This document shows, piece after piece, positions 1,322-7,535 of a stretch of DNA of 7,535 nt. The position numbers and the translations under genes were made by a program. How positions within the stretch are numbered: position 1 is the first letter of the stretch; each line of letters begins with the position of its first letter. Under the pieces are notes generated by a model. That model made no database searches. It was not told the origin of the DNA and saw nothing but the letters and a program-made list of their open reading frames with translations. Origin of the DNA: Planctomycetota bacterium (lineage in GTDB: Bacteria > Planctomycetota > Phycisphaerae > WQYP01). Location: positions 1 to 7,535 of the forward strand of contig JAKBAC010000156.1 of the NCBI GenBank assembly GCA_021809365.1. The letters run 5' to 3'.

Positions 1322-3034
1322 TCAATGTTTTGGCAGGGGCAAATTCAGTGATGAATTTACCTTTTCAGCCGACATTGCGCTGGCGGCGGCGGCCTTGAGT
1401 GCCGCAGCGCGAACCGATGGATTATCAGAAATTCCCGCCACGGACATATCCACGTTATACATCATCGCCGGGACAATCCAAGTCAGCGGTGAAGCTTGCA
1501 TGGGATAAGAGGATTGCGCTTGCTTAAGTGCCCCGGCGGCATGGACATTAAATTCCACCATGGCCTGCTTGCGGAAATTTCCCACCGCACCGGCTGGGGG
1601 TCCCAGCAGAGGTGATTTTTCGCTCACGATAGAAAAAATCTGTTTACCGGCCTTTGCCGCCCCAGCCTGAAGTTGCGCTGCGTACATTCGCATGGCGGCA
1701 ATCTGCCCCGCTTTCAGGGCAGCGGCGGCGCGATACACTTCCAGAACACATTGCGGAGCACGGCTCTGATTGGCGGCCACCAGTGGATCAGCCGGTTTGA
1801 ATCCGGAGGTAATCAGGCTTTGGGCGTACGCGCTGGAACGACGCTGTTCATTCAGGGCGGCCATAAGATCACTGGAAGCCGCCTGGGTATATTTATCAGC
1901 GATAGCGCCTTGTTTATTGATGGTTTTAATCAGAGCGTTAATACCGACAGCGCGCCCGGCAGCGGACGTTGGAGAACTGCCGTTGGAACCGTCAATGAGC
2001 ACAGTGACACCAGCCTTAAGCGCGGCAATTTGCGCACTATCGCTTTGGGCTAATTCCGCCGCGGACTTTTGAGCCTGCCGTAAGGCCGACACCTGATTGG
2101 CCCAGCGGGCTTGCTGGAGTTTCGCGGAATGAAAAGCCAGTGTCGCGAGTTGATAATGAGCTTGTAAAACGCGGGCTTTCTGATTGGCGGCGGCGGCACG
2201 GTCCAGATACCCTGCCCCGCGCTTAAAATCCTCCAGCGTGGCGGGCGTAACGGTCACTTCACCCGTGGTTTGCAACGCCATCCCGCGAATATCCAACGCT
2301 TTGGCAATACCCCGGTAGTGCATCAGGACACGGTGTACAGAACCTGCTTTCCTGTGAGTTGCCGCCACCACACGTTTTGCGGATTGTTCCATACGTTGCG
2401 CGTGGCGCAGATCCTGATCATATAAGTGCAGGTACAGATCATGCTGTTTTTTCAAAAATGCCATTTTCTCGGCAAAGCGCCCCACCTGTGTGGAGGCGGA
2501 ATCCACGGATAATACCTGATCCTGCAACGCCATTAAGGCCGCGGATAACTGGTTTGTATGGACCTGTGCCGAGGCCAAATTGACCAGCCCGCGCTGCAAT
2601 TCAAGCAAGCCCTTCACCTGGAAATTCAGATCAGAATTTCCCAGGGCGCTGGAAAGCGTCGCGTACGCATGGCGTAAATCACGGCTGACCGAGGGTGCCT
2701 GGAGATACGCACCGGGATTACTTTTGGCCGCCTCCCGCGCCATCATCAACTGCCCGGAGCTTAAGGGTCCACTGATTGAAACCGGAAAATGAGCCTTGGA
2801 ATGATATCGCCCCGCCTCCGCTAACAGCACAGATGCTTTGGCTGATGCCGCCTGCGCCTGCACATCCGCCTGATGCGATGCCGAAGCACCGCAACCGGCC
2901 AGGGCGGCAGTGACCGCAAACGCGGCCGCTGCACCTACGGCCCGTGCTAAGCCGGTCCATCGACCTGCACGGACCATCCCTGCGGTATTGGCCTTGGAAA
3001 TCATAAGAACGGGCCGTTGTGTTGTAGAAATCAC
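1322..3034 (-). CDS. Predicted lipoprotein of unknown function, Ala/Gln-rich and helical
   Basis: No family recognised. With the GTG at 3034 as start the protein has 570 residues. A basic stretch (VRAGRWTGLARA) precedes a hydrophobic run and a lipobox L45-A46-G47-C48, so it should be lipidated on Cys48 and anchored to a membrane on the periplasmic side. The rest is very rich in Ala, Gln, Ser and Leu with heptad-like stretches (roughly residues 50-330 and 340-420), suggesting long helices or coiled coil. I see no enzyme motif. Start choice: AGGAG lies 5 bases before GTG 3034, whereas the in-frame ATG at 3049 has no such site. The ATG at 2977 would give a more usual 28-residue signal peptide, but its AGGG directly abuts the codon. 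The gene follows the pseudopilin operon on the same strand but has its own promoter. An accessory envelope part of the secretion machine is possible, unproven. Confidence 0.8.
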   Translation of the reverse strand: MISTTQRPVLMISKANTAGMVRAGRWTGLARAVGAAAAFAVTAALAGCGASASHQADVQAQAASAKASVLLAEAGRYHSKAHFPVSISGPLSSGQLMMAREAAKSNPGAYLQAPSVSRDLRHAYATLSSALGNSDLNFQVKGLLELQRGLVNLASAQVHTNQLSAALMALQDQVLSVDSASTQVGRFAEKMAFLKKQHDLYLHLYDQDLRHAQRMEQSAKRVVAATHRKAGSVHRVLMHYRGIAKALDIRGMALQTTGEVTVTPATLEDFKRGAGYLDRAAAANQKARVLQAHYQLATLAFHSAKLQQARWANQVSALRQAQKSAAELAQSDSAQIAALKAGVTVLIDGSNGSSPTSAAGRAVGINALIKTINKQGAIADKYTQAASSDLMAALNEQRRSSAYAQSLITSGFKPADPLVAANQSRAPQCVLEVYRAAAALKAGQIAAMRMYAAQLQAGAAKAGKQIFSIVSEKSPLLGPPAGAVGNFRKQAMVEFNVHAAGALKQAQSSYPMQASPLTWIVPAMMYNVDMSVAGISDNPSVRAAALKAAAASAMSAEKVNSSLNLPLPKH

Positions 3035-3039
3035 GTCAA

Positions 3040-3044
3040 CTCCT
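3040..3044 (-). promoter_or_regulatory. Ribosome binding site that decides the lipoprotein start
   Basis: AGGAG on the minus strand, separated by TTGAC (5 bases) from the GTG at 3034-3032. It lies inside the first codons of the longer frame beginning at ATG 3049, so the shorter GTG start is favoured. Confidence 0.65.
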
Positions 3045-3083
3045 GCCATAGCTCAACCGCCACCCTGTCGAAAATCGAACATT

Positions 3084-3192: not shown

Positions 3193-3672
3193 TTACGCCG
3201 GTGGCTCGAAGGTGGCCCGGCCAAAGGATGTTCCGGGAATGGCCACACGGGTAAGCCTCCAATGCCCAACATTGCGCTGGAATTCCAGCACGCGACGACT
3301 GTGCAGATCGGCGAATGTTGCCTGCACGGTAAAGAATATTTTTTTGTCGGCCGGTCGGCGCGCGGAAATTATCAGCCGTCCGCTATTTTTTATCAGGGCT
3401 TCGGGCAAAGCCACCGCCCGCGGATCGGATGAAATTTTCCCCGCCGCCAGTTCATTTATTGCGCAGCTTTCTCCCGCATGAAGCAGAAGACCCAGTTGCA
3501 ACCGGGCGATGGTGTGATCTGTGAGTTTTAATTGATAGGAAAACACCTCACCAAGCACCACAAAACAGGCCGCAGCCAAAGCGATCATCGCCACCACGGT
3601 GATAATGGCAAAACCGCGCGGATTTTGGCAGTGCGTGATTTTGCGACCAGTGGATGGAAAATGATGGTTCAT
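3193..3672 (-). CDS. Small GspK/PilX-like minor prepilin
   Basis: A 159-residue prepilin-like protein. After a hydrophilic leader comes PRG-FAIITVVAMIAL: prepilin peptidase would cut after Gly20, and position +5 of the mature protein is Thr25 rather than Glu. Lack of Glu+5 is a known trait of the minor pseudopilin GspK, and the following LLLHAGESCAINEL resembles the AEAG...A..L helix of GspK/PilX proteins. GspK proteins are usually around 300 residues with an extra alpha domain; this one is about half that, so it is a minimal version at best. The frame extends upstream to 3816, but the ATG at 3672 overlaps the stop of the GspJ-like gene (ATGA, 3669-3672) and places the leader correctly. It is the last gene of the I-J-K-like trio and would sit at the pseudopilus tip. 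The exact subtype is inferred mainly from order and the missing Glu+5. Confidence 0.75.
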   Translation of the reverse strand: MNHHFPSTGRKITHCQNPRGFAIITVVAMIALAAACFVVLGEVFSYQLKLTDHTIARLQLGLLLHAGESCAINELAAGKISSDPRAVALPEALIKNSGRLIISARRPADKKIFFTVQATFADLHSRRVLEFQRNVGHWRLTRVAIPGTSFGRATFEPPA

Positions 3673-4172
3673 AGCGCACCAGGCTTTCCGGCATGAAGCT
3701 CTGCCACAAGGGATACGAACGTTTGGGTAACGTGTTGTTTTCGTCTCACCCAGGAAACGGACACATAGCCGGGGCTGAATTGTGCAAAGTGCAAGTCGGG
3801 CCAGAGTGCAGGCCAATACTGTGGCGGTGGAGAAATTTTCCCATTCTGCCAGATCCGTGCCACGGTGCCGTTGGAATTCACCAGCCAGAGAATCTTCCGC
3901 TTTTTTCCAAATCCGCAGATCAGACCATGGGATCCCTGCAACTGCAGATTTGCAGCAGTGGCTATGTCCTGCCGCAATTCCCGCATCAACTGTCCCTGCT
4001 GCGACACATGTGCCGCCCGAAGATCAGCTTGGTTAAATGTGCGGAGGCACACCACAAAGAGCTGCCCGGCCATCATCAAAAAAACAGCCATGACCGGAAG
4101 CATGACCACGCACTCCATGAGGGTAAATCCCCCTTTGCAACGGCCAGTTCCAACAAGCATTTTTCGTTTCAT
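3669..4172 (-). CDS. GspJ-like minor prepilin
   Basis: A 167-residue prepilin with a textbook class III signal: CKGG-FTLMECVVMLPVMAV, cleavage after Gly15 and Glu20 at mature position +5. The hydrophobic helix spans about 16-41. The amphipathic stretch QQGQLMRELRQDI (58-70) matches the region in GspJ/PulJ where a conserved R.L.QDL-type motif occurs; the C-terminal half is beta-rich looking and diverged. The start at 4172 has GGAGG 6 bases upstream and overlaps the stop of the preceding gene by ATGA; the longer frame to 4343 is the antisense-like extension through that gene. Its place between a GspI-like and a GspK-like gene matches the usual I-J-K order. Prepilin assignment is firm; GspJ subtype is moderate. 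Confidence 0.82.
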   Translation of the reverse strand: MKRKMLVGTGRCKGGFTLMECVVMLPVMAVFLMMAGQLFVVCLRTFNQADLRAAHVSQQGQLMRELRQDIATAANLQLQGSHGLICGFGKKRKILWLVNSNGTVARIWQNGKISPPPQYWPALWPDLHFAQFSPGYVSVSWVRRKQHVTQTFVSLVAELHAGKPGAL

Positions 4173-4546
4173 TTTTTGCCTCCCATGCGTTTCGTCTGCG
4201 GCGACAGAGCCAACGCATACAGCGTCGGTCCGGGGGAATGGCCGGCAGCATGAATGGCAACCCAATGGCTGCCGCCGGGCAACGGTTGACTGCCCCGGCT
4301 TGGCATTTTGGCCGGCCCGATGACCCCCGCGCCAGCGACCCATTGTTTGGCAGCGGCTCCCTGGGGCCGCATCGTGGCGCGATACAGCATGGTCTGCTCA
4401 TTGCGGGCCGCAATACGCATAGCCGCCAGACGCCCGCAGTCCCGGTTATACAGCCACACCACATGCACGAACACTGACGCCAGCGCCAAAAGCAGCACAA
4501 TGGCAAGCGTCAGATCGAACATAAAAAAGCCGCGACTTCGGTTCAT
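4169..4546 (-). CDS. GspI/GspH-like minor prepilin with Asp at +5
   Basis: A 125-residue prepilin-like protein. A very short leader MNRSRG is followed by FFMFDLTLAIVLLLALASVFV, giving cleavage after Gly6 and an N-methylation-type helix. Mature position +5 is Asp11 instead of the usual Glu, a conservative but uncommon change. The AAMRIAARNEQTMLYR segment (about 41-56) resembles the helix after the membrane anchor in GspI; the C-terminus is rich in Gly, Pro and Ser with no recognisable domain. The ATG at 4546 overlaps the T2SF-A stop (ATGA, 4543-4546); GGAGG lies 9 bases upstream (4556-4560). The first 16 codons are almost identical in DNA to the start of the chimeric ORF at 5957. First in the prepilin trio, so GspI-like is the best guess from order; GspH is an alternative. 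Confidence 0.75.
   Translation of the reverse strand: MNRSRGFFMFDLTLAIVLLLALASVFVHVVWLYNRDCGRLAAMRIAARNEQTMLYRATMRPQGAAAKQWVAGAGVIGPAKMPSRGSQPLPGGSHWVAIHAAGHSPGPTLYALALSPQTKRMGGKK
4179..4183 (-). promoter_or_regulatory. Ribosome binding site of the GspJ-like gene
   Basis: Minus-strand GGAGG lies 6 bases (CAAAAA) before the ATG at 4172. It confirms that the prepilin leader starts here and not at an upstream codon of the longer open frame. Confidence 0.7.
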
Positions 4547-4552
4547 GATCCA
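4503..4552. repeat. 50 bp exact repeat at a prepilin start, copy 1
   Basis: These 50 bases, covering the last codons of T2SF-A and the first 15 codons of the GspI-like prepilin, are identical to 5914-5963. The spacing is 1411 bp. On the left they remain similar for only about one further codon; on the right an extra 3 bases in this copy (an added codon in the T2SF-A tail) break the match. Confidence 0.9.
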
Positions 4553-5808
4553 GCACCTCCACTGACCACCTGCAAAATATGGACGTATGGCACATACAAT
4601 GCCAAACATAATAGCAGCACCAAGGTTCCCATACACAATACGGTAATCGGAATGCTGACAGCATGGATCAGTTCCACCTTGCGGCGATACTTGAGGTCGT
4701 AATAGCCCGCCACCAATGCCAGTGCCGAACCTGTGGAACCCAACGGTTGGGCCAGAGCACCACACAACAGTCTCGGCAGCCCGCATTTCCGCGCAGCACG
4801 ATCTGCCGACGTTCCCGCCAGCACCAGTTCTCGCCACAACCGCAGGCGCCGCTTCGCCACGCGGCTACCCACAGCTTCTACTGCGGCTTGCGAAACATCC
4901 GGCAAGGGCTGGCCCACGGCGATGCCTTGAGCCAATATCCGCGTACCGTCGGACCAAGAGCGGCAGCGAATCAGGGAACCCAGTATCGGCAGACGCCACG
5001 CCATGGCATCGCGGATATAAATCACGACATTTCCGGGCCTGAAAAAGGGAATCGCAAGGCGGCGAAGCAGGATGGCCGTAATGATGATGATCGCGAAGGG
5101 CAGGCTGGCGAGGAAGCCGATGGCGACGTGTTCGACCCAGCGGTGACTGAGAAAAGACGTGACTTTCATAAGCGGCCGCGCGAAAGGAAAAACGCCGGAC
5201 CCCATCCCCCGGAGGAGCGGGGGCGCAATCATCGAACGAAACACCATCAGGGCTAAAGCGAACGTGATCAGGAGGCAGATAAGATAGGCCAGGAAGGCCA
5301 CATCGAGTTCCGAAGTGCTTGGCCAACTCCGTCGGCGCTCACAAAGACGATCCATTTCACTCAATAAAAAACCAGATTTCTCGGCTTCCTCAATCGACGC
5401 CAAGTCTGCCGCCGCCACCTCCGGCACCGCCAGCCGCAGGGACCCCGCCAGCAACCTTCCGCCGTGTAGTTGTTCAGCAAGCGTTTGCAGCCGCACGCCC
5501 AAGATGCCTGGTTCGCCCTCGCTTGCCCGCAGCAAGTTCTCATATAGTGGATGATTGAGTCGCATCGCGTCGTAGATTTTCTGCAGCACAACTTGGGCGC
5601 GCCGCCGGGCGATGAAATACCGAGCCATTACCATCACTGGTAGAGAAAGAAGAACCGCAATTACGATGGGCGGAATCGGGGGAAGGACAAGACCGGCGAT
5701 CAGGCACCACACCGGCAGCCATGTCCCTACAAATGCCAGTACCCCGCGCCGGCGCTGCCATCGTGCGATGCGCCTGCGGGCAAGCCAGATTTGCAAACTT
5801 TTAAGCAT
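4543..5808 (-). CDS. Type II secretion system F-domain protein (GspF/PilC-like), copy A
   Basis: Inner-membrane platform protein of a type II secretion or type IV pilus-like machine, 421 residues. It carries two T2SF-type repeats: domain 1 at about 85-205, with IEEAEKSGFL (139-148) at the position of the family GE.SG.L motif, and domain 2 at about 270-410, with LGSTGSAL (356-363). Hydrophobic segments are at about 24-42, 47-64, 171-191, 231-248 and 384-408. The extra N-terminal membrane pair preceded by a basic patch (RRRIARWQRRR, 11-21) is not the usual GspF beginning. The frame opens with a GTG at 5820, but the ATG at 5808 aligns with the start of copy B and shares its A with the stop of the small upstream ORF (TGATG), so I chose it. 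Aligned by hand to copy B it has no gaps to residue 420, with about 44% identity in residues 1-250 and 74% in 251-420. It directly precedes the prepilin trio. Confidence 0.88.
   Translation of the reverse strand: MLKSLQIWLARRRIARWQRRRGVLAFVGTWLPVWCLIAGLVLPPIPPIVIAVLLSLPVMVMARYFIARRRAQVVLQKIYDAMRLNHPLYENLLRASEGEPGILGVRLQTLAEQLHGGRLLAGSLRLAVPEVAAADLASIEEAEKSGFLLSEMDRLCERRRSWPSTSELDVAFLAYLICLLITFALALMVFRSMIAPPLLRGMGSGVFPFARPLMKVTSFLSHRWVEHVAIGFLASLPFAIIIITAILLRRLAIPFFRPGNVVIYIRDAMAWRLPILGSLIRCRSWSDGTRILAQGIAVGQPLPDVSQAAVEAVGSRVAKRRLRLWRELVLAGTSADRAARKCGLPRLLCGALAQPLGSTGSALALVAGYYDLKYRRKVELIHAVSIPITVLCMGTLVLLLCLALYVPYVHILQVVSGGAGS
4691..4755. repeat. 65 bp exact repeat inside T2SF-A
   Basis: These 65 bases are identical to 6105-6169 in T2SF-B (offset 1414 bp). 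They encode the AQPLGSTGSALALVAGYYDL region of both proteins. Every synonymous position is identical, although flanking DNA differs at many sites, which suggests recent recombination between copies as well as protein-level constraint. Confidence 0.9.
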
Positions 5809-5957
5809 CACTTCGTCCACCGGTCGCCAACGCGGATTACGACTCGAACTGTCCTGGGCCGCCTGGCTTCTTCAACACTCTGAGCAAACGGCAGCGCTAC
5901 GGCCCGTGCAATAGCAAGCGTCAGATCGAACATAAAAAAGCCGCGACTTCGGTTCAT
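5808..5957 (-). CDS. 49-codon chimeric ORF: prepilin N-terminus fused to unrelated tail
   Basis: The first 16 codons (MNRSRGFFMFDLTLAI) repeat the start of the GspI-like prepilin almost base for base. The remainder, from ARAVALPFAQSVEE to the TGA at 5808, is unrelated to that prepilin. Its AVALPF resembles AMALPF in the partial T2SF protein at the right edge, and lies 78 bases before the T2SF-A start, against 80 bases for AMALPF before T2SF-B. The ORF thus looks like the junction of a tandem duplication. GGAGG lies 6 bases before the ATG (5964-5968), the ATG overlaps the T2SF-B stop (ATGA) and the TGA overlaps the T2SF-A start (TGATG), so it is probably translated and may couple the two genes. 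The hydrophobic helix is cut to about 10 residues, so a working pilin is unlikely. It may equally be called a prepilin pseudogene. Confidence 0.6.
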   Translation of the reverse strand: MNRSRGFFMFDLTLAIARAVALPFAQSVEEARRPRTVRVVIRVGDRWTK

Positions 5958-5963
5958 GATCCA
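5914..5963. repeat. 50 bp exact repeat at a prepilin start, copy 2
   Basis: Identical to 4503-4552. It spans the end of T2SF-B and the start of the chimeric ORF. Identity stops within codon 16 of the prepilin reading, where the tail of different origin begins. Confidence 0.9.
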
Positions 5964-7222
5964 CCTCCGCTGCGGCCAGCAATCTGCAGCAGTTCAACAT
6001 AGGGAACATACAGCGCCAAACAGAGCATCAGAACCAGCGTTCCCATACATAGCACCACCAGAGGAATACTTACAGCGCGAATGACCTCTGTCCGGCGGCA
6101 ATATTTGAGGTCGTAATAGCCCGCCACCAATGCCAGTGCCGAACCTGTGGAACCCAACGGTTGGGCCAGGGCGCGGCATACCATTTGTGGCAGGCCGGTT
6201 TTTCTTGCTGCGGCATCGGCCGGCATTCCCGCCAACATTCTTTCGCCCCATCGTCGGAGCCGCCGCCGTGCAACGCGGCTGCTAACAGCTATCGCGGCAG
6301 TTTGAGACACCTCCGGCAAGGGTTGGCCTGCCGCCATGCCCTGCGCGAGAATCCGTGTACCATCTGACCAAGCCCGCCAACGAATCAGCGGGCCGGCTAT
6401 CGGCAGCCGCCAAACCACCGCGTCGCGCAGATAAATCGACACGTTCCCGCGACGGAAAAAGGGAATCGCCAGGCGGCGGAGGATGGCACCGGCAGCTATA
6501 AATAGTGCGATCACAACAACGGTCGCAATCGTGGCCGAGACATGCTCCGCCTGACGACGGCTGAGCCAATCTGAGAACTGTAACCAGCGGCCCGGAAAAG
6601 TAACACCCCACTGGCCAAAGGCCTTCCGCAACTTCGGCTCGACCACCACGGTGAAAATGAGAAATGTGATTATGAAAACGCCAAAGAAAGAAGCGAAATA
6701 TATCAGCAGGCCTCCGTCCAGTTCATTGACAATATTCCAAGCTTGTTCCTTGGAAGTAAGTCTCGCTAGTTCCGGTAGAAGCCGTCCGGCCCTCTCCGCC
6801 TCGGTGATCGCTGCGAAGTCGGAGGCTCTTAATTCGGGCATTGCCAGTTGCATTGATTCGGCAAGTGTCAGGCCGCGCTGCAGGAGTTCCGCCAGCATTT
6901 CCAAGCGGACGCCAACCGCACCTCGTTCAGAAGCCCCGGCGGCCCGCAGTCCTTCGGCCAGGGGATGGTTCAGGCGAACGATGGTATAGATTTTCCGAAG
7001 GACGATATCGGCATAACGACGGGTGATAAAATACCGCGCAATGACCCAGACTGGAATCACCAGCAGGAGCACGTACCCGAGCACTCGCATAAAATCCCCG
7101 AGCACGAAGGCCAGCCCGCACCACACCGGCAACCAGGTTGCCAGAAATGCCAGCACCCCGCGCCGGCGCTGCCATCGGGCGATGCGCCTTCGAGCCAGAG
7201 AGATTCTTAAATTCCTAAGCAT
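5954..7222 (-). CDS. Type II secretion system F-domain protein (GspF/PilC-like), copy B
   Basis: Second full-length platform-type protein, 422 residues, collinear with copy A. The basic N-terminal patch RRRIARWQRRRGVLAF (11-26) is identical to copy A; hydrophobic segments fall at about 24-41, 47-63, 172-193, 230-247 and 384-408. T2SF domain 1 has ITEAERAGRLL (139-149), and domain 2 the shared LAQPLGSTGSALALVAGYYD (352-371). The middle (about 160-250) differs most from copy A and carries VEPKL (194-198), nearer to the canonical T2SF EP motif than APPLL in copy A. The ATG at 7222 has AGGA 4 bases upstream (7227-7230); the gene begins 43 bases after the stop of the preceding T2SF gene and ends overlapping the chimeric ORF. 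Two such proteins could form a mixed platform, or serve different substrates. Confidence 0.88.
   Translation of the reverse strand: MLRNLRISLARRRIARWQRRRGVLAFLATWLPVWCGLAFVLGDFMRVLGYVLLLVIPVWVIARYFITRRYADIVLRKIYTIVRLNHPLAEGLRAAGASERGAVGVRLEMLAELLQRGLTLAESMQLAMPELRASDFAAITEAERAGRLLPELARLTSKEQAWNIVNELDGGLLIYFASFFGVFIITFLIFTVVVEPKLRKAFGQWGVTFPGRWLQFSDWLSRRQAEHVSATIATVVVIALFIAAGAILRRLAIPFFRRGNVSIYLRDAVVWRLPIAGPLIRWRAWSDGTRILAQGMAAGQPLPEVSQTAAIAVSSRVARRRLRRWGERMLAGMPADAAARKTGLPQMVCRALAQPLGSTGSALALVAGYYDLKYCRRTEVIRAVSIPLVVLCMGTLVLMLCLALYVPYVELLQIAGRSGGGS
6105..6169. repeat. 65 bp exact repeat inside T2SF-B
   Basis: Partner of 4691-4755, offset 1414 bp, in the same reading position of the paralogous gene. 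Confidence 0.9.
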
Positions 7223-7265
7223 ACGTTCCTGATCCAGCAGCAGAGAAAATATTTTTCTTTCAGGC

Positions 7266-7535
7266 TTAGCCCGTGGCGGTCAAGGTCTGCAGAAGGTGGA
7301 AAAACGGCAGTGCCATGGCGTATATGACAAGAAATAACACCACACCGATCAGCAGCAGGGACACCGGGGTTACCACCGCCGGCGCAATGCTGATGCGCGC
7401 TTGGGCTTCACGCGTGTATCCCTCTGAGAGCACCGTCAATGTCTCGGGCAGATTATTTCCGGCGATACCGCTTTGAATGGTCGCGGCCACCGAGGCCGGC
7501 AACATCCGCCCCGGCGAAGCTTGATTTGGTGGCAG
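7266..7535 (-). CDS. T2SF-domain protein, C-terminal part (5' end cut by window)
   Basis: Last 89 residues of a third GspF/PilC-like platform protein; the frame is open to the right edge, so the rest lies outside. The visible part has the order of a T2SF second domain: an amphipathic SVAATIQSGIAGNNLPETL where the family has its GE.SG.L...L motif, then VLSEGYTREAQARISIAPAVVTP, then a long terminal membrane helix (SLLLIGVVLFLVIYAMALPF) and a short tail. The Glu of the GE motif is not preserved (GIAGNN). It is not close to copies A or B and looks more like ordinary GspF. It is probably the first T2SF gene of the operon, since T2SF-B starts 43 bases later on the same strand. Confidence 0.8.
   Translation of the reverse strand: MPPNQASPGRMLPASVAATIQSGIAGNNLPETLTVLSEGYTREAQARISIAPAVVTPVSLLLIGVVLFLVIYAMALPFFHLLQTLTATG

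Follow-up and report, generated by a model that had tools for sequence, protein, structure and literature searches.

A chimeric open reading frame between tandem T2SF genes as a candidate duplication scar and coupling leader

Between two adjacent genes for GspF/PilC-like platform proteins (T2SF-B and T2SF-A), in a pilus/secretion gene cluster of a Planctomycetota bacterium, lies a 49-codon open reading frame (ORF) with a prepilin-like head and a tail resembling the end of the upstream gene T2SF1. We consider it probable, at roughly 0.6, that this junction ORF is a domesticated duplication scar that now acts as a translated coupling leader between T2SF-B and T2SF-A, a reading built on sequence comparison. 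The proposed event is a tandem duplication, or an insertion equivalent to one in its ends, of a segment that begins at the 3' end of T2SF1, takes in a complete T2SF gene and stops within the prepilin I head; the homologies on either side suggest that the chimeric ORF was left at the seam. A change of frame, visible in the sequence, would have let the ORF extend beyond the old T2SF1 stop and end at a TGA overlapping the ATG of T2SF-A. Ribosomes ending T2SF-B would then reinitiate on the ORF via ATGA, TGATG or TAATG, read about 49 codons, finish over the T2SF-A SD sequence (GGTGG) and reinitiate at T2SF-A, and expression of T2SF-B, T2SF-A and prepilins I-J-K would stay chained. The first 25 residues, a prepilin-type start and a hydrophobic stretch, appear to have been kept, seemingly under selection as a peptide, with the middle drifting freely; in the lineage of the window, the head would later have been overwritten by the prepilin head through gene conversion.

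The window, a stretch of 7,535 nt, lies on the minus strand of a 30-kb contig (G000:C57), and the genes and their parts are given here on that strand. In minus-strand order, the genes are the 3' part of T2SF1, T2SF-B, the junction ORF, T2SF-A, prepilins I-J-K and a 575-aa protein. The T2SF1 part (7266..7535) belongs to a canonical GspF of 412 aa that runs on beyond the window, and a 43-nt spacer (7223..7265), paralogous to the end of the junction ORF, separates it from T2SF-B (5954..7222; 422 aa; PF00482). The junction ORF (5808..5957) is laid out as in the relatives G002 and G006, and is followed by T2SF-A (4543..5808; 421 aa; PF00482), which has orthologues at 86% in G002 and 83% in G006. 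Prepilin I (4169..4546; MNRSRGFFMFDLTLAIV...), named by its N-terminus and the likely donor of the converted head, precedes a prepilin J-like gene (3669..4172) and a prepilin K-like gene (3193..3672), both with starts set at the -4 overlap, where an ATG is present. Pfam gave no match for prepilin I or for the longer J and K frames (3669-4343 and 3193-3816). The 575-aa protein (window 1322-3049) has equal length in G002 and G004 and no Pfam match above the cut-off. The window also carries an exact 34-bp direct repeat (1161-1194 and 1259-1292) with the hairpin core TGACGC-TGCC-GCGTCA, a REP-like dispersed repeat with 7 sites in the genome within 3 mismatches and 0 for the reversed control.

The observation of the junction ORF and its repeats was confirmed. 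The ORF starts with ATG behind the SD sequence GGAGGTGG, encodes 49 aa, and overlaps T2SF-B by ATGA and T2SF-A by TGATG; the good ribosome binding site and the stop/start overlaps on both sides described in the initial annotation are all present in the window. Its first 16 codons, noted there as identical to the prepilin start, match it at 47 of 48 nt, more than expected by chance, and the match sits within an exact 50-nt run (5914..5963 versus 4503-4552, the prepilin I head). The annotation had further read AVALPF (5886..5903) as mirroring AMALPF at the upstream T2SF end, and the coding blocks (GCCGTAGCGCTGCCGTTT and GCCATGGCACTGCCGTTT) do agree at 15 of 18 positions; they lie 77 and 79 bases before the next T2SF start by our count, so the near-equal distances stand with the figures (78 and 80) each reduced by one. 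The repeats are spaced by 1411-1414 nt, as expected for the proposed duplication unit of about 1.41 kb. Inside the window, the AVALPF/AMALPF pair is weakly above chance (shuffle p 0.016), and comparison of the ORF with the T2SF1 end gives shuffle p values of 0.0125 (nt 49-78) and 0.085 (nt 37-78). Against the single-copy relative G003, 0 of 400 shuffles were as good as ORF nt 49-78, a far stronger result than within the window.

T2SF-A orthologues at 83% or more occur in 3 of 28 searched genomes of the family (own genome included), namely the window genome (G000), G002 and G006. Both relatives have the window's layout of T2SF-B, 49-codon ORF, T2SF-A and prepilin, and the ORF persists in them with stop/start overlaps on both sides. 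In all three genomes, found via the T2SF pair, the ORF is exactly 150 nt, and an ORF profile matches at full length in the same 3 genomes among the 397 of the class that were searched. Since these are two further MAG assemblies with the layout, we rejected the idea that the tandem is an assembly artefact. Relatives of the kind that the initial annotation had proposed to seek also exist: in G003, G004, G005 and G007, a single T2SF separates T2SF1 from prepilin I. Among about 5.8 billion proteins, searched up to E 10 with 11 candidates scored, there were nine ORF clusters, the window's own included, all of 49-50 aa, in a kind of search that would miss broken ORFs. The same set holds at least 8 T2SF-A clusters at 82% or more, again with the window's included, and the next stands at 63% among the 7998 scored candidates, those with the most shared words. 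Three ORF clusters match T2SF-A clusters in the size of the longest contig (79900, 4609 and 84755).

The relatives change how the head is to be read. Identity between the ORF head and the prepilin I of the same genome drops from 47/48 nt in G000 to 34/48 in G002 and 30/48 in G006, and any two of the three prepilin heads differ at 2 of 48 nt only. In 8 of the 9 clusters the product begins M(A/S)RR(R/H)GFFL, in some preceded by an extra Met, and MNRSRGFFM is found in the window's alone; the ORF of the G002 genome begins MVRRRGFFL. Because the heads of G002 and G006 diverge from their own prepilins, a later gene conversion in the lineage of the window probably wrote the prepilin head over that of the ORF. 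These two heads also rule out the 16-codon identity as the original breakpoint. Thus, the tandem-duplication junction proposed in the initial annotation is supported in outline but not in its placement of the breakpoint at codon 16, and the breakpoint can be located only to between ORF codons 16 and 26. An exact repeat in one genome can reflect recent gene conversion, and relatives are needed before a breakpoint is called. Apart from a few exact tracts, T2SF-A and T2SF-B have a protein identity of 56% and a third-position identity of 43%, near saturation. One such tract, of 65 nt in G000 (4691..4755, common to 6105-6169), compares with a 99% maximum run of 23 nt under the null, and exact A/B tracts at other places measure 45 nt in G002 (null 99% maximum 27) and 32 nt in G006 (23). 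The 65-nt tract may reflect conversion between T2SF-A and T2SF-B, but the stretch is generally conserved, with other copies agreeing at 54-61 of 65 nt; given this agreement and a null made by codon shuffling over the whole gene, the T2SF tracts are weaker evidence of conversion than the head.

The remainder of the ORF points to the other end of the duplicated unit. Its last part (nt 79-150; 5808..5879) resembles the T2SF1 3' end with the intergenic spacer: the G006 ORF scores 62 against G007 (shuffle mean 27, 0/400), 44 against its own genome (0/400) and 42 against G002 (p 0.005); the G002 ORF scores 44 against G007 (0/400), 38 against its own (0.0225) and 35 against G003 (0.04); and the window's ORF scores 37 against G007 (p 0.005). 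Over all comparisons of this part with T2SF1 ends, 7 of 15 fall below 0.05 and the other 8 lie at 0.0575-0.68. When the part is shortened to nt 79-130, the best p of the window's ORF is 0.0875, with G002 and G006 still below 0.05. Taken from codon 17 as far as its stop, the ORF falls below 0.05 in 9 of 18 comparisons with T2SF1 ends. A profile of the three tails, run against six loci, finds outside the ORFs themselves G007 (E 0.015) and G003 (E 0.074), both at the T2SF1 end and spacer, before the next match at E 5.1; the G007 match covers model positions 12-98 and stops 4 nt short of the T2SF ATG, the same distance as in the ORF. In the reverse search, a T2SF1-end profile places the three ORFs at E 0.69, 1.1 and 3.5, among noise. 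When windows were ranked with the stretch around each junction ORF masked, the T2SF1 end came first of 2551 for G006 versus G007 and for G000 versus G003. Against the T2SF1 end of the same genome the tails are weak (ranks 63, 64 and 44 of 2551), and the G002 tail has its top score at an unrelated place, with its best T2SF1-end window ranking 48. G004 was excluded from the spacer profile and the segment test, its spacer being nearly identical to that of G006. In the alignment, the ORF frame is shifted relative to T2SF1 and thereby passes the old T2SF1 stop; in G002 and G006 that stop can still be recognized as an out-of-frame GATAA. The AVALPF block lines up in register with the G003 T2SF1 end but is missing from the other 8 of 9 clusters, and was dropped as a conserved signature. 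The left part of the chimera is thus homologous to prepilin I, the gene that closes the duplicated unit on the right, and the right part to sequence at its left end, weak as the reverse profile is. This supports the reading of the tail as the 3' end of T2SF1 with the spacer after it, in matching register, and hence of the ORF as a duplication junction.

The same comparisons bear on an internal deletion, in which a full prepilin copy would have lost its middle and the tail would be a prepilin C-terminus, the finding that the initial annotation had named as contrary to its proposal. The head homology suits such a deletion, as do two comparisons with prepilins, G002 nt 37-78 against G007 (p 0.01, although head codons are included) and G006 nt 49-78 against its own (p 0.0475). 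However, similarity to the prepilin from codon 17 onward is no better than shuffles (0 of 18 comparisons below 0.05; p 0.16-0.99), nt 79-150 give p 0.35-1.0 over 15 comparisons with the prepilin, and the tail matches the T2SF1 end and spacer instead. We therefore rejected the deletion, which is highly improbable. An import is harder to dismiss: T2SF-A and the left seam could have come from a relative and been joined at the prepilin, a course compatible with a coupling role. The T2SF tree joins T2SF-B to the single-copy genes of G003/G007 and places T2SF-A outside (support 91/96), and the tail is closer to the T2SF1 ends of G007 and G003 than to its own. Yet the tree carries a long-branch warning and does not reject a clade of A and B (AU p 0.057; 0.068 for A with the single-copy genes, under the same warning), the segment has the ends of an in-place duplication and its 1.41-kb spacing, and fast-changing T2SF1 ends could account for the better match elsewhere. 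Import is a possibility, though not one we favour. As it stands, the duplication may be older, with A lost elsewhere; A may have come from outside; or the tree may be misleading.

Related loci show further differences. Within the genus, the rpoB tree is ((G000,(G002,(G006,G007))),(G003,G005)), drawn without G004 (no RpoB match) and G019 (two partial matches only). G004, which resembles G006 at 98% in T2SF-B, carries a single T2SF, and its prepilin start follows the G006 junction-ORF head before switching to the G006 prepilin. This would fit a loss of T2SF-A through recombination between the heads, tentatively so at a contig coverage of 1.68. G007 is the rpoB sister of G006, yet its locus is single-copy and G003-like, which points to replacement or mis-binning; by eye, the end of its prepilin K (L041) is again G006-like, with a switch inside the locus. 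Downstream of prepilin K, G004 (L040, 3682-4357) and G007 (L041, 5413-6088; both as reverse-complement positions) carry a toxin-antitoxin-like pair that is absent from the window and that we take, by eye, to be of AbrB/SpoVT-MazF type. T2SF-B (window 5954-7222) changes far faster than T2SF-A and has near-random middle parts; third-position identity between G000 and G002 is 0.55 for T2SF-B, 0.84 for T2SF-A and 0.72 for T2SF1. In G005 (L042) and G023 (L047), which belong to different genera, T2SF1 shows no difference at two decimals, even at third positions, by transfer or through a mis-binned contig. Ahead of its prepilins, G018 (L046) has two consecutive T2SF-type pairs, in a gene order unlike that of the window, perhaps a separate tandem duplication in the family.

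A role in coupling is argued by the wiring of the operon. From the T2SF-B start through prepilin K, all junctions are -4 or -1 nt in G000, G002 and G006, with prepilin J and K starts placed at the -4 position, where ATG was found in 5 of 6 cases and GTG in 1 of 6. The overlap between T2SF-B and the ORF varies in type, being ATGA in G000, TGATG in G002 and TAATG in G006, and TGATG joins the ORF to T2SF-A in each of the three genomes; the gap from T2SF1 to T2SF-B is 42-43 nt. An ORF that ended at the old T2SF1 stop would fall about 40 nt short of T2SF-A, and the actual ORF overlaps it. In published experiments, a spacing of about 20 nt nearly abolishes reinitiation coupling (PMC10666635), 38 nt in E. 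coli removes 80-90% or all of reinitiation, -4 and -1 overlaps are the commonest spacings (PMC10666635, PMC6728339), and 13 of 14 overlapping gene pairs are coupled (PMC6728339, Huber et al.). The avoided shortfall, together with these distance effects, favours a coupling leader. The energy of the SD duplex ranges from -8.8 to -9.8 at the ORF, from -5.1 to -6.4 at T2SF-A and from -3.6 to -5.0 at T2SF-B. T2SF-A has its own SD and an in-frame GTG 12 nt upstream of its start, so coupling may be dispensable.

The coding pattern of the ORF suggests that parts of it are under purifying selection. Between G002 and G006, in segments whose limits were picked after viewing the alignment and whose counts are small, codons 2-25 carry 8 synonymous against 5 nonsynonymous changes (pN/pS 0.23, P 0.010), codons 26-42 have 3 and 13 (1.48; 1.40 for G000-G006) and codons 43-49 have 3 and 0 (0, P 0.0135). 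The whole ORF stands at 0.44 (P 0.0196) and T2SF-A at 0.26; within the first 25 codons, P is 0.096 for codons 1-16 and 0.034 for codons 17-25. These values suggest purifying selection on codons 2-25 and 43-49 and none on 26-42. Since codons 43-49 span the T2SF-A SD and the overlap, no peptide function is needed to explain that end. The window's ORF departs in part from this pattern: G000-G002 shows 9 nonsynonymous and 1 synonymous changes in codons 17-25 and 8 and 0 in codons 26-49, and G000-G006 shows 10 and 4 in codons 17-25 and 1 and 3 (P 0.044) in codons 43-49. Across 8 of the 9 clusters (the window's ORF excluded, the extra first Met of P0007-P0009 trimmed), identity is 0.89 for residues 2-13, 0.70 for 14-26, 0.55 for 27-42 and 0.88 for 43-49.

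A neutral relic, that is a scar open by chance with constraint only on the SD and TGATG of the T2SF-A start region, would account for the free middle and for the absence of synonymous changes in codons 26-49 between G000 and G002. Tail divergence is also near that of T2SF-A four-fold sites (18/99 versus 0.20; 24/99 versus 0.29; 37/99 versus 0.30), and under simulated neutral substitution at 0.2-0.3 changes per site the tail stays open in 45-65% of cases. With openness so likely by chance, an open frame in three genomes is weak functional evidence, and we discarded it as proof of function. On the other hand, the purifying signal in codons 2-25 is as strong as that of T2SF-A, all three loci have the ORF at one length, all nine clusters are 49-50 aa long, and both overlaps are kept in 3 of 3, which makes a relic rather unlikely. 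If codons 2-25 are selected as a peptide, the product may have a role of its own. Type IV prepilin peptidase sites have the motif G↓F followed by a hydrophobic segment, usually with E at +5. By motif and hydropathy, such a site is predicted in all nine clusters, as RG↓FF or HG↓FF with a 19-residue hydrophobic stretch directly after it (Kyte-Doolittle mean 1.59-2.44 in the clusters; 2.73 in prepilin I). The product could thus be a 49-aa micro-prepilin, exported or inserted via its prepilin-type start and acting in the pilus or secretion platform, with coupling secondary. However, a pilin body after the N-terminal helix is absent from these 49-50-aa products, which have no room for one and no Pfam match, codons 26-42 are unconstrained, and in the window's ORF the head is converted and codons 17-25 form a different block; we regard this as quite improbable. 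A broader proposal, that the scar has turned into a new gene, would combine the two roles: a prepilin start and out-of-frame T2SF/spacer DNA would encode a translated, membrane-targeted 49-aa peptide, selected as a peptide (codons 2-25) and as a reinitiation bridge, kept across several species of the genus, with the head serving as a recombination handle that rewrites (G000) or collapses (G004) the tandem. In this full form the proposal is speculative and unlikely to hold.

To our knowledge, tandem-duplication seams are seldom viewed as more than scars. This one can be compared across species as an ORF, and its stop/start overlaps on both sides make the wiring of an added gene copy into a tightly coupled operon directly testable. 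The two flanking genes are ordinary in kind, as T2SF-A and T2SF-B both match GspF/PilC platform proteins (PF00482) above the cut-off, but the best match here is to the C-terminal domain, and T2SF-A orthologues at 83% or more occur in 3 of the 28 family genomes. The ORF head, RRRG↓FFLFDLT with its hydrophobic stretch, is like that of type IV prepilins and GspI-like T2SS pseudopilins, from which the short, bodyless product differs also in having D for E at +5. For a seam ORF of this kind, or for tandem GspF genes in Planctomycetes, there was nothing closer, among the open-licence papers listed, than PMC6728339, PMC10666635 and PMC11111574. As in the termination-reinitiation coupling described in the first two (Huber et al.), -4/-1 overlaps lie on both sides of the ORF in 3 of 3 genomes, but the putative link here is a short chimeric scar and no gene of the complex. 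Join points of tandem duplications can place silent genes under new promoters by fusion (Anderson and Roth 1978, cited by PMC11111574), and the seam described here likewise makes a new connection for gene expression; whereas those are promoter fusions in fresh mutants, this seam is common to several species and carries an in-frame leader ORF.
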